Source: Arcobacter sp. LA11
Lineage (GTDB): Bacteria; Campylobacterota; Campylobacteria; Campylobacterales; Arcobacteraceae
Length of the DNA: 64,000 bases
NCBI RefSeq assembly: GCF_001895145.1
Contig: NZ_BDIR01000005.1
Coordinates: 248,001-312,000, forward strand
Reading direction: 5' to 3'
This document shows, piece by piece, positions 41,028 to 46,288 of this stretch; the first letter of the stretch is position 1; the number at the start of each line of letters is the position of its first letter. Under the pieces are notes generated by a model, which saw nothing but the letters and a program-made list of their open reading frames with translations, searched no databases and was not told the DNA's origin. The translations under genes and the position numbers were made by a program.

Positions 41028-41765
41028 ATGACTGAACTAATACTATTTGGTATGATAACTGGATTTATATCTGGTTTTTTTGGTGTTGGAGGAGGAATGG
41101 TCCTTGTTCCAATGCTAGTAATGACCGGATACTTAATGAAAGAAGCAATTGCAATTTCAATTATGCAAATGGTATTTAGTTCTATTTATGGTTCATTTTT
41201 AAACTCTAAAAAAGCAAAAGGTGTTTTTAAAGAAGGTCTTATTATTGGAATGGGAGGTTTTGTAGGAGGTTTACAAAATAGCTTTGTACATTCTATAGTT
41301 TCAAATGAGGCTTTACAATACTTTTTTATTTTAATTATCATACTATCAATTATCAAAATCTTTGTATCTCCAGCAGAACCTGATTGTGAGCCAAAAAAAC
41401 ACAGTAAATTAACTCTATTTATTATAGGTTTCTTTATTGGGATTATTGCAATGAGTATTGGAGTTGGTGGCTCAATTATGTTAATACCAATTCTAGTTGG
41501 TTTTATGCATTATAATATTAAAACAGCAACTAGTCTTAGTTTATTTTTTGTAATATTTTCATCTATAGCAGGATTTAGCTCTTTAACAATAAATGACCAA
41601 ATGTTATTTAATGAAGGTTTTACAGTAGGAGCTGCTTCTTTAATAGGTGTTTATTTTGGAATAAAAACTAAGAATGCAACTTCATCAGGTTCATACAAAC
41701 AATTTATACTAATACTAAATTTTATAATATTAGCAACAATGATTTATAAAACTTTTTTTAATTAA
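41028..41765 (+). CDS. TauE/SafE-family (TSUP) sulfite or sulfonate exporter
   Basis: A 245-residue membrane protein with about eight membrane segments and the two-fold TSUP pattern (GMITGFISGFFGVGGGMVLVPMLVMTG, GFFIGIIAMSIGVGGSIMLIPILVGF). The family carries anions such as sulfite, sulfonates or carboxylates; the substrate cannot be read from sequence. Only seven bases follow cysE. The stop codon overlaps that of the minus-strand gene that faces it. Confidence 0.85.
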   Translation: MTELILFGMITGFISGFFGVGGGMVLVPMLVMTGYLMKEAIAISIMQMVFSSIYGSFLNSKKAKGVFKEGLIIGMGGFVGGLQNSFVHSIVSNEALQYFFILIIILSIIKIFVSPAEPDCEPKKHSKLTLFIIGFFIGIIAMSIGVGGSIMLIPILVGFMHYNIKTATSLSLFFVIFSSIAGFSSLTINDQMLFNEGFTVGAASLIGVYFGIKTKNATSSGSYKQFILILNFIILATMIYKTFFN

Positions 41766-44290
41766 ATATTCTTAAAAAAATAAGATAAAATTCCACCATT
41801 TTTATAATATTCTACCTCAGCATCATTATCTAATCTACATTTTAAGTCAATTTCAATATCAAAATCTATTTTATGAATAATTACACTTATTTTCGAATCT
41901 GCTTTAATTTCATTACTTAATATAGATACTTTTTCATTCCCTTTTAATTTTAAACTTTGAATATCATCGTTAATAAATTCCAAAGGTAAAACTCCCATAC
42001 TAATCAAACTTTTTCTATAAATTTCTGAAAAAGATTTCGCAATAATAGTTCTTACTCCAAGAAGTCTAATTCCTTTTACTGCCCAGTCTCTTGAATCTCC
42101 TTTACCAAAACCTTCACCTGCAAATATAATAGGTATCTTATCTTCTTGCATAAACTTTTGTGATTTATCATAAATAGATATTATCTCATTTGATTCATAA
42201 TCTATAGTATATCCACCCTCTTTTGATATCATTTGATTTTGAACTTTGATATTATCAAAAATACCTCGAACCATAACCTCAGCATTTCCTCTTCTATTTT
42301 CAAAAGAATCATACTCAAAGGATTTTAAACCTTTTGTTTCTAAAAACTTTGAAGCAGGAGAATGTAAAGATATTTGTCCAAGTGGAGAAATATGTTCAGT
42401 AGTAATAAAATCACCAAATATAGCTAAGATTTCTGCATTTTTTATTTCAATTTTTTCTAATTTTATCTCTTCTAAAAAATTAACTGATTGAATAAAAGTT
42501 GAATTACTATTCCAATTATATGTATCACTATTGTTTACAATTAATTTTTGCCAAAAATCATTGCCTTTAAAAATATTTTTGTATATATCTTTATATAAAG
42601 TATTATCAAGTTTTTCTAGATAATCCCCTACTTCCTTACCTGTAGGCCATAAATCTTTCATCTTAATATCTTTATCATCAATTACACCAATAATATCCTC
42701 AAAGAGATTAAATTTCATACTTCCTATTAAAGAATAAATTACTATTAAAGATGGAGACATTAAGTAATTTGATTTTATTAAAGGATTATTATTGTATTTA
42801 TAATCTTTATCTATAGAACTAATAGCACAGACATTAAGATTATTACTTCTAATATCAGATTCTAAATTTATATCTATTACTTCAGAACCTTTTGAATCTC
42901 CACATCCATAAGAAACAATATTAAAACCTATTTTTTCTAAATAATGCAATAAACCAATTTTTTCTAAATACTCTTTTACTATGATAGAATCAGGTGAAAA
43001 AGTACATTTTATATTTTTATTTACAGTAAGACCAAACTCTAAAGCCTTTTTTGCTATTAATGCAGCATGTATAAGTAAATATGGATTTGAAGTAGATATA
43101 CATGAATTAATAGAAGCTAGAACTATATCTGTATCTTTTAATTCTTTTCCTCTGTTTAAAATAACTAACTCTTTTAAACTATCCAATTCAATTATATTAG
43201 TTGATTTTTTTTGTCCTATTATTATTGGAGTCAATACTGATAAATCAAAATCAATTACTTGGTCATAATCTAATTCTTCATTAGAATAAAAAAAACTTTG
43301 CTTTTCTAAATAAGTTTTTATTAATTTCGAATAATCTTCATTGCCTCGCGTTTTATTAAAATATGAAATTGTCTTATCATCAATTGCGAAAAAAGAACAT
43401 AAAGCTTTATACTCTGACGCCATATTACAAATAATAGATCTATCTTCAAGAGTAAGATGTTTTAATCCCTCACCATAAAACTCAATAAACTTACCTTCTA
43501 CTTCATATTCTTTTAATAGTTTAATCAAAGCTAATACTAAATCAGAAGAAGTAATCCCTGATTTAAGTTCTTTATGAATATTTACACCAACTACTTTAGG
43601 AAAATCTAAAGAGAGTGGAAAACCTAAAATAGTAGATTCAAGTTGCATACCATCACAACCTAAACCTAATACCCCAAGGGAGTTTGTCATACTATTATTT
43701 GAATCAGTTATACATATAGTCTCTGGATATAAAAAAAACCTATCTTCTTTTTTTTCTACATGTAATATAGTAGATAAATACTCTAGGTTTACTTCATGAC
43801 ATATGCCAGAACCAGGAGGTATTACTCTAAAATTTGAAAATGCATTTTCTGCCCATTTTACAAACTCATATTTTTCATAATTTTTCTCATACTCTTTATT
43901 TATATCTAGATTACTTTCATTACTATTTCTCAGAGAATTATCAATTACCATATCAACCATAATCTGAGGATTTATTTTAGATATATCATCTTCTTTTTCT
44001 TTCATTTTATCTCTAATTGAAGCTAAATCAATAAGAGAAGTAATACCTTTAAAGTTTTGCATAATTATACGAGAAGGATGAAAATTGATTTGAGAATTCA
44101 TTCGATTAGAAAAAATATCTACTATTTTATTAAATTCTATTAAATCTTTTGATTTACGAAGATTTGCTTCTAATAATATTTTTAAAACAATTGGAAGTTT
44201 TTTTAATTTTTTACTACTATTTAAAACACTACTTATATCATGATAATAAAATGTTTCATTTTCTATATCAAAACTGTTGATAATATCCAA
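41762..44290 (-). CDS. Degenerate aconitase (AcnA/IRP-type) homologue
   Basis: 842 residues that align over the whole length of AcnA/IRP1: NSFDIENETFYYHDI at the start, PPGSGICHEVNLEYLS, GKFIEFYGEGL, GDFITTEHISPLGQI, ENRRGNAEVMVRGIF and SLISMGVLPLEF. Two cluster ligands remain (Cys397 in INSCISTSNP, Cys463 in SYGCGDSKGS), but the third is Ser466 (canonical GCxxC). The aconitase His residues of VIDHS and TDSHTT are Asn118 and Asn198, and the arginine segment GNRNFEGR reads SIDKDYKYNN. Canonical dehydratase activity is very unlikely. It could be an apo-aconitase-like regulator or a new enzyme. Confidence 0.8.
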   Translation of the reverse strand: MDIINSFDIENETFYYHDISSVLNSSKKLKKLPIVLKILLEANLRKSKDLIEFNKIVDIFSNRMNSQINFHPSRIIMQNFKGITSLIDLASIRDKMKEKEDDISKINPQIMVDMVIDNSLRNSNESNLDINKEYEKNYEKYEFVKWAENAFSNFRVIPPGSGICHEVNLEYLSTILHVEKKEDRFFLYPETICITDSNNSMTNSLGVLGLGCDGMQLESTILGFPLSLDFPKVVGVNIHKELKSGITSSDLVLALIKLLKEYEVEGKFIEFYGEGLKHLTLEDRSIICNMASEYKALCSFFAIDDKTISYFNKTRGNEDYSKLIKTYLEKQSFFYSNEELDYDQVIDFDLSVLTPIIIGQKKSTNIIELDSLKELVILNRGKELKDTDIVLASINSCISTSNPYLLIHAALIAKKALEFGLTVNKNIKCTFSPDSIIVKEYLEKIGLLHYLEKIGFNIVSYGCGDSKGSEVIDINLESDIRSNNLNVCAISSIDKDYKYNNNPLIKSNYLMSPSLIVIYSLIGSMKFNLFEDIIGVIDDKDIKMKDLWPTGKEVGDYLEKLDNTLYKDIYKNIFKGNDFWQKLIVNNSDTYNWNSNSTFIQSVNFLEEIKLEKIEIKNAEILAIFGDFITTEHISPLGQISLHSPASKFLETKGLKSFEYDSFENRRGNAEVMVRGIFDNIKVQNQMISKEGGYTIDYESNEIISIYDKSQKFMQEDKIPIIFAGEGFGKGDSRDWAVKGIRLLGVRTIIAKSFSEIYRKSLISMGVLPLEFINDDIQSLKLKGNEKVSILSNEIKADSKISVIIHKIDFDIEIDLKCRLDNDAEVEYYKNGGILSYFFKNI

Positions 44291-44368
44291 ACTATAATAC
44301 CTTCTTATGGTTATTTAGTTATAAAAATAACAAATGATTAATTAAGACTGGATAAATTATTTATTTCA

Positions 44369-44393
44369 AAGAAGAGTTTAAAAAACTCTTCTT
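44369..44393. terminator. Terminator after katA-ankyrin operon
   Basis: AAGAAGAGTTT pairs perfectly with 44383-44393 over a three-base loop, and the ankyrin gene's stop codon lies in it. The U-tract on the minus strand is weak (TTTGAAATAA), so some read-through into the aconitase-like gene, 78 bases on, is possible. Confidence 0.6.
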
Positions 44394-44851
44394 ATGTAAG
44401 ATATAGTATTTGTAAGGATTGAATAAATTGTGCTTTTTTTATCTTTAGTTAAATATTCTGTAATCTCTTTATGTCCAAAAAGTGCAGAAAAAGTTACAGG
44501 TGTTGTACCCATTCCATTATTTGCATATATATTTGCTTTTCCTTTTTCTACTAATAATTTAACCATTTCAAAATAACCTTTAAAGCAAACACCTGCTAAT
44601 GGTGTTTGCCCTCTATCATTTCTTTTATCAACTTCTGCACCATTTTTAATCAAAAACTCTACAAGCTCTATTTGATTATTATAAGAAGCTAACATCAATA
44701 AGCTATTTCCTTTATGGTCTGATAAGTTTATATTTAGCCCTGAATAAATCATTCTTGATAATTCATCTAAGTTACCTTTTCTTGCAAAATCTAGTGCCAT
44801 ATTTTGAAGTTCGGCATATCTTTCTTCTTCATCTGCTGTAATTGCTATCAT
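44378..44851 (-). CDS. Ankyrin-repeat protein linked to catalase
   Basis: A 157-residue cytoplasmic protein made of about four ankyrin repeats (GNLDELSRMIYSGLNINLSDHKGNSLLMLASYNN, ...NGAEVDKRNDRGQTPLAGVCFKGYFEMVKLLVEKGKANIYANNGMGTTPVTFSALFGHKEI). A gene of this kind follows katA in Campylobacter jejuni (Cj1386), where it is reported to help deliver haem to catalase. The nine-base gap here supports the same partnership. Confidence 0.85.
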   Translation of the reverse strand: MIAITADEEERYAELQNMALDFARKGNLDELSRMIYSGLNINLSDHKGNSLLMLASYNNQIELVEFLIKNGAEVDKRNDRGQTPLAGVCFKGYFEMVKLLVEKGKANIYANNGMGTTPVTFSALFGHKEITEYLTKDKKSTIYSILTNTISYIRRVF

Positions 44852-44860
44852 GATAAATCC

Positions 44861-46288
44861 TTATATTTTTAATGCAGTTCTTACCCCTGCTTCATATTCA
44901 CTTGAAACCTTTTTGAAATGACTTAATTGCCTTTCTATTATCTCTAAAGGAACACCATCCATAGATTCTGCAATATTATTAAACAATTGTTCTTTTTGAT
45001 AATCTGACATTAAATTAAATAAATTTCTTGCCTGTACATAATTATCATTGTTCTTATTATGATCATATCTATTAGCATCACCATTTATAACTAAGTCTGG
45101 TTCTAATAAATCTCTATTTTCTACTGCTCCATTAAAACTATTTGGTTCATAATATGCATCCGTAACTTCTTTCTCTTCAAAATTCATAGAACCTGCAGTA
45201 TGATATGTATTTACATCTACAATTGGTCTATTTACTGGTAACATTTCATAATGAGTCCCTACTCTATATCTATGTGCATCAGGATATGAAAAAATTCTAG
45301 CTTGAAGCATTTTATCAGGAGAGAAACTAATACCTGGAACGACATTTGAAGGAGAGAATGAAGCTTGTTCTATTTCATTAAAATAATTCTTTGGATTTTC
45401 ATTTAAAGTTAATACACCAACATCAATTAGCGGATAATCAGCATGAGGCCATACTTTTGTTAAATCAAAAGGATTAAACTCAAAATCTCTAGCTTGCTCT
45501 TCTGTCATAATCTGAATTTTAAAATCCCATTGTGGGAAATTTCCTTTTTCAATATTTTCAAATAAATCTCTTTGATTACTTTCTCTATCACTAGCTACAA
45601 TTTTTGCAGCTTCTTCATTTGTAATAGTTTCTATTCCTTGTTTTGTTTTAAAATGGAATTTAACCCAAAATCTTTCATTGTTTTCATTTATTAAACTATA
45701 AGTATGAGAACCATAACCATTTACATGTCTATAACTCTTTGGAATACCTCTATCTGACATCAAAATAGTAACTTGATGTAAAGATTCTGGACTTAATGAC
45801 CAAAAATCCCATGCAGCAGTGTTTGAGCGTAAATTACTTTGTGGATGTCTTTTTTGTGTATGAATAAAATCAGGAAATTTCTGAGGGTCTCTTATAAAAA
45901 ATACTGGCGTATTATTACCTACTAAATCCCAATTTCCCTCTTTTGTATAAAATTTCAAAGCAAAACCTCTAACATCTCGTTCTGCATCAGCAGCACCAGC
46001 TTCACCAGCAACTGTTGAAAATCTTAAAAGCATTCTAGTTTTCTCACCTTTTTCAAATACTTTCGCTTTTGTATACTTTGAAATATCATTTGTAATTTCA
46101 AGTTCTCCAAAAGCTCCACTCCCTTTTGCATGAACTACACGTTCAGGTATTCTTTCTCTATTTTGATGTGCAAGCTTCTCTATTAATTGATAATCTTGCA
46201 TCAATACAGGACCGTATTCACCTGCTGTAATTGAATTTTGATTATCTGCAATTGGATTCCCTGCTGTTGTTGTCATTGTTTTTTTCAT
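44861..46288 (-). CDS. katA: Haem catalase KatA
   Basis: A 475-residue small-subunit (clade 3) catalase. The distal haem His sits in [18 protein letters not shown], the Asn in [18 protein letters not shown], and the proximal Tyr in [14 protein letters not shown]; all are intact. AAGGA precedes the ATG. It is divergent from uvrA across 176 bases (46289-46464). I looked there for a PerR-like operator and saw only AT-rich sequence, no convincing box. Confidence 0.97.

Follow-up and report, generated by a model that had tools for sequence, protein, structure and literature searches.

Aconitase-fold proteins of Arcobacteraceae have lost their catalytic residues, stay under purifying selection and may serve as partner-binding proteins

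Aconitase is the textbook example of an enzyme that doubles as an RNA regulator. Where this is known from bacteria, a single protein alternates between the two functions. In Mycobacterium tuberculosis, an IRE-like RNA hairpin is bound by apo-AcnA (PMC7527780), and a Cys506Ser exchange renders human IRP1 constitutively RNA-binding (PMC7181819). Here, we describe an AcnA/IRP1 homologue encoded in a 64,000-nt stretch of DNA from Arcobacter sp. LA11 (referred to as the window) and its orthologues, which we call pseudo-aconitases. A literature search of open-access papers retrieved no earlier description of this family.

The features of the gene are compiled in Table 1. Ranked 27 of the 49 ORFs by codon usage, it is a typical gene of the window in this respect, and the other frames over the same DNA have lower codon-usage scores. 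Most orthologues share its translation start, M-(D/N)-I-(I/V)-N-S-F. A preliminary description, made from the sequence alone, had called the product a full-length aconitase homologue, and this was confirmed: a single chain contains the Pfam modules Aconitase (PF00330, 5.8e-97) and Aconitase_C (PF00694, 6e-26), and the phmmer alignment with human IRP1 spans residues 28-840. The protein is above the cut-off of NCBIfam NF006757 for the AcnA subfamily (843 vs. 686 bits) and below that of the equivalog TIGR01341 (809.6 vs. 945 bits). NF006757 is also passed by several cluster-less orthologues, resulting in the automatic name aconitate hydratase AcnA. For these members, the name is likely a misannotation.

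Table 1. Features of the pseudo-aconitase gene and its upstream region (window positions; the limits of domains 3 and 4 are approximate, those of domain 3 being set by homology to IRP1)
Feature	Position	Strand	Remarks
Pseudo-aconitase ORF, AcnA/IRP1 family	41762..44290	(-)	842 aa, TTG start
Domain 4, residues about 621-842	41765..42430	(-)	among the best-conserved parts of the family
Former cluster domain (domain 3), residues about 336-560	42611..43285	(-)	with C397, C463 and S466
Shine-Dalgarno sequence AGAAGG	44300..44305	(-)	9 nt before TTG
Promoter-like element TTAATTAATCATTTGTTATTTT	44324..44345	(-)	conserved in many orthologues, 25-37 nt before the gene
Possible terminator, an AT-rich hairpin following the ankyrin gene	44367..44396	(-)	-11.3 kcal/mol, z -2.4

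We mapped 22 active-site positions, which we take to be the set of mitochondrial aconitase, by alignment to Escherichia coli AcnA and other AcnA proteins; numbering of the active site follows mitochondrial aconitase. The window copy keeps 13 of the 22 residues. C397, C463 and S466 occupy the positions of Cys358, Cys421 and Cys424, the third cluster cysteine being replaced by Ser466. Asparagines (N118 and N198) stand at the His101 and His167 positions, and SIDKDYKYN replaces the NRNFEGR segment. All these changes had been listed in the preliminary description and were borne out by the alignment. Overlooked at that stage were the positions of the catalytic Ser642, which is Asp732, and of the substrate arginine Arg580, which is Lys653. 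The substrate arginines Arg447 and Arg452 are also exchanged (to Lys and Asn, respectively), and histidine is still present at the His147 and His569 positions. Judged as an active AcnA, the protein thus has the Pfam modules and lacks the three cysteines, Ser642, Arg447, Arg452, Arg580 and a sufficient TIGR01341 score. It is very probably cluster-free, as had been proposed, and despite its automatic name, aconitase activity would not be expected from such residues.

The preliminary description had recommended a search for a separate AcnB. The window's genome encodes a full AcnB (1402 bits; NCBIfam cut-off, 1287) and additionally an AcnD, located between prpC-like and prpF-like genes (L002). AcnB was above the cut-off in 23 of the 25 relatives tested, the exceptions being G031, whose AcnB is divided between contigs, and G077, in whose 91% complete assembly no full AcnB was found. 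The TCA cycle is independent of the pseudo-aconitase gene.

Searches for orthologues covered the relatives, the family Arcobacteraceae and the phylum, and 38 loci were read. Four were set aside: an intact AcnA located elsewhere (G090b), a contig-edge fragment (G114), a truncated copy (G115) and a broken copy (G123). The family set therefore comprises 34 ORFs, namely the window's and 33 further intact orthologues. Orthologues were found in Arcobacteraceae only; of the 104 genomes of this family, about one in three has the gene. Nearly all of them are flanked by a TauE-like gene, cysE, speA and hisS on one side and by uvrA on the other; the conserved uvrA-tauE-cysE-speA locus therefore identifies them as true orthologues. 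The 34 intact orthologues group in a single clade (support 100). Among the intact AcnA proteins sampled, that of G090 (G090b) is closest to this clade in the tree (support 98). This AcnA (L075:6429-9077) belongs to the same bacterial family as the pseudo-aconitases but differs from them in keeping 21 of the 22 active-site residues and all cysteines, and in lying beside nif-like genes, off the uvrA-tauE locus. By eye, the intact protein (882 aa) is encoded directly after nifH/nifD/nifK-like genes and before molybdate-transport-like genes (L075:1727-9077), and it looks like an aconitase inside a nitrogen-fixation cluster.

The pseudo-aconitase gene is missing from many relatives. In G009 and G027, uvrA and tauE are directly adjacent, about 120 bp apart. 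In the G123 copy (L089:6103-7761), the reading frame shifts near residue 160 and domain 4 is gone; of the G115 copy only the C-terminal part remains, beside an inserted gene. The insertion at the G115 truncation point (L088:5671-6213) encodes a TIR-like protein with an FISYHH motif, as judged by eye. Such absences and damaged copies show that the gene, useful though it is, can be dispensed with. Errors in metagenome-assembled genomes may have inflated the differences in some members.

Across the family, the active site is eroded to very different degrees, with 2 to 18 of the 22 residues kept per member. Only 1 of the 34 orthologues retains the catalytic Ser; Arg452 is found in 4, Arg580 in 2 and His569 in 2, and parsimony placed the losses of these four residues at or near the family root. 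All three cluster cysteines are present in G011, G031 and G033 only (3/34). They were lost independently at least 9, 4 and 9 times, respectively, counts that assume no regain on a tree with some weakly supported nodes. Whether Asn118, Asn198 and Ser466 are fixed in the clade had been raised in the preliminary description; they are not, as the orthologues carry different residues at each of these positions. To judge from the alignment, the three residues represent one species' version of an active site that erodes differently species by species. The sole member with a serine at the catalytic position is G006 (L046:6150-8681; GIGSARNW), which may reflect reversion, retention or an alignment effect. 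In our preferred reading of these patterns, catalysis disappeared a single time from an Arcobacteraceae AcnA paralogue, at or near the family root (Ser642, Arg452 and Arg580 positions). Its [4Fe-4S] ligands were given up later, on repeated occasions, with purifying selection continuing to act on the fold.

The commonest residue had a mean frequency of 0.48 at the 22 active-site positions in the family, compared to 0.94 in canonical AcnA. At 159 further positions with no variation in canonical AcnA, the family mean was 0.67 (resampling p about 1e-4 for the difference to 0.48). Catalytic and substrate-binding positions are even less conserved than the average site within the family. This bears on the earlier suggestion that the protein is an enzyme with a new substrate, to which cluster-free chemistry in the old cleft may be added. 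A full-length fold in most members and the three cysteines persisting in G011, G033 and G031 are consistent with such an enzyme. However, each active-site position shows 4-12 different states among the 34 sequences, the family has no replacement active site in common, the cleft is under-conserved, and two members even lack the cluster domain. We therefore consider an enzyme with new chemistry very improbable.

In the two members concerned, G003 (622 aa) and G013 (671 aa), about residues 356-565 (window numbering) are deleted in frame, without a stop. Using the gene's own tree, one and two deletions of domain 3 were not separable (AU p 0.53). A tree of five neighbouring genes, in contrast, rejected sisterhood of G003 and G013 (lnL difference 61, AU p 0.025). 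Since it places them apart, the domain was probably deleted twice independently, unless genes were exchanged. The cluster domain itself is dispensable.

Upstream of the gene, a 22-25 nt element, TTAANNAATCATTTGNTATNTT, was found at a distance of 25-37 nt in the window's relatives, and a variant form was recognized by eye in other clades. Apart from the window's element, the 3.1 Mb genome has no perfect match. With a matrix trained on eight sequences, the held-out G007, G090a, G117 and G120 scored beyond every shuffle, and the domain-3-less G013 retains the element at the highest score of all; several clades have other upstream regions. No clear regulon controlled by the element emerged: genome-wide, there was one perfect match and there were seven 2-mismatch matches, compared to three for the reversed control.

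The window copy lies next to katA and an ankyrin gene, and the preliminary description had proposed a weak terminator between the genes and a possible co-expression under oxidative stress. The terminator was loosely right: an 11-bp hairpin is present (Table 1), but it lacks a clear U-tract. Co-expression with katA was not supported, as the katA-ankyrin pair adjoins the gene in only 3 of the 38 loci (window, G007 and G020), and both the hairpin and the gene's own promoter-like element lie between the pseudo-aconitase and ankyrin genes. In G117, the pair is two genes away; in G120, the ankyrin gene is two genes away and the contig ends there. The adjacency is incidental. Between uvrA and the pseudo-aconitase gene (window 44378-46288; loci L041-L089), the insertions differ between species, as would be the case in an insertion hot spot: in addition to katA-ankyrin, we saw a TetR-like and oxidoreductase-like pair and, in G008, a large oxidoreductase-like set.

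Next to loss stands constraint. Pairwise dN/dS (Nei-Gojobori; distant pairs have a dS close to 1) was 0.05-0.30 for nearly all orthologue pairs, with the exception of G003/G013 (0.47). Pairs sharing Cys losses had values of 0.055-0.22, and values for pairs with a common loss were 0.125 (G002/G010), 0.055 (G005/G015) and 0.11 (G120/G117). When ten close pairs were pooled, dN/dS of all segments fell between 0.13 and 0.27, the former cluster domain having a value of 0.159. A substitution-only simulation predicted 25-53 stops per close pair under neutrality, and none was observed. Thus, the initial impression that the gene is not decaying at random was upheld, and the family combines lost catalytic residues with purifying selection afterwards, as is characteristic of a pseudoenzyme under selection. 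Compared to most neighbouring genes (0.02-0.13), dN/dS is raised about 2-6 times, and the constraint on the pseudo-aconitase is accordingly moderate.

The faster evolution, together with the idiosyncratic erosion of the active site, the frameshift and domain-4 deletion in G123, the truncation in G115 and the clean absence in G009 and G027, could also be expected of a slowly decaying relic, which lost catalysis and is now being lost itself, its long ORFs being left over. The preliminary description had named orthologues with intact residues alongside prematurely ended ones as a sign of plain decay, and an orthologue with intact cysteines (G011) and broken copies (G115 and G123) do exist. Nevertheless, the dN/dS values across the remaining members, reached after the losses, rule out plain decay as a general explanation. 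The 34 ORFs without stops, the normal codon usage, the promoter-like element kept in many members and the wide vertical retention also argue against a relic, which we regard as improbable.

Our preferred reading, with a probability of roughly 0.6, is that the pseudo-aconitases are pseudoenzymes acting as permanently cluster-free partner-binding proteins, either regulators or scaffolds, the fold of which is under purifying selection. A macromolecular partner (protein or RNA) would be contacted via domain 4 and the N-terminal segment and not via the old cleft. Conservation of the N-terminal 60 residues is higher in the family than in canonical AcnA (0.63 vs. 0.51), that of domain 4 is about equal (0.63 vs. 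0.65), and that of domains 1-3 is lower; the comparison is valid as a relative pattern only, the canonical set being taxonomically broader. From this shift in conservation, we infer a binding role through the N-terminus and domain 4. The raised conservation of both parts could also be a plain folding constraint. Two AlphaFold models, built from only four sequences each (pLDDT 60 and 63), were too poor for surface mapping. Foldseek searches with the models returned aconitase/IRP structures first, with full-length TM-scores of 0.3-0.6, again too low for this purpose.

One specific form of partner binding would be that of a permanently apo, IRP2-like post-transcriptional regulator which binds mRNA hairpins in the manner of IRP1, the loop with the core domains and the bulged C with domain 4. 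RNA binding by apo-AcnA of M. tuberculosis (PMC7527780) speaks for it, as does Ser466, which occupies the position of Cys506Ser in human IRP1 (PMC7181819). We compared the RNA contacts of IRP1 (taken from PMC4184891, PMC4693282 and PMC7181819) with the family. The residues of the C8 pocket are mostly kept (S681 and P682 in 27/34 each, D781 in 19/34 plus 9 Glu, and W782 in 32/34), and all four are present in the window copy; they are, however, nearly invariant in canonical enzymes too, and their retention may be structural. The contacts to the terminal loop are lost (R269 in 1/34, with 23 Lys; S371 in 5/34; K379 in 8/34), the window copy having K, I and I at these positions. Likewise, R536, R541, R713 and R780 are found in only 6, 4, 9 and 10 of the 34 proteins, respectively. 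Moreover, domain 3 is entirely missing from two members, and most of the proteins are acidic (pI 5.2 for that of the window), although this holds for canonical AcnA as well. The apo-aconitase RNA regulator suggested in the preliminary description thus has the correspondence of Ser466 to the Cys506Ser position in its favour, while most IRP1 RNA contacts proved unconserved. Because the domain-4 C8 pocket alone is kept, an IRP1-like two-site RNA reader is disfavoured on sequence grounds, and we consider hairpin binding in the manner of IRP1 unlikely. An RNA contact through domain 4 only, or a protein partner, would be possible.

In 34 species, an aconitase fold is retained without its chemistry. 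The members make up a natural series, from all cysteines kept through one or all of them lost to a deleted domain, and allow the non-enzymatic function of an aconitase to be examined free of catalysis. The family is also a warning that automatic annotation would call many pseudo-aconitases aconitate hydratase.

Compared to AcnA/IRP1-type aconitases, the window protein shares end-to-end homology but lacks the cluster ligand, the catalytic Ser and the substrate arginines. IRP2 resembles it in having an aconitase fold with a substituted active site and no aconitase activity (PMC4693282). A bacterial counterpart of IRP2, a dedicated non-catalytic binder with recognition by domain 4 and the N-terminus and with a dispensable cluster domain (probably lost twice independently), is a tentative proposal, to which we give somewhat less than even odds. 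IRP2 binds RNA, whereas in the pseudo-aconitases most IRP1 RNA-contact residues are unconserved and domain 3 is gone in two members; nothing suggests common descent of the two as non-enzymes. With M. tuberculosis AcnA (PMC7527780), the pseudo-aconitase shares the proposed cluster-free state. However, the apo-AcnA regulators are bifunctional switching enzymes, and the pseudo-aconitase lacks the residues of the enzyme state.
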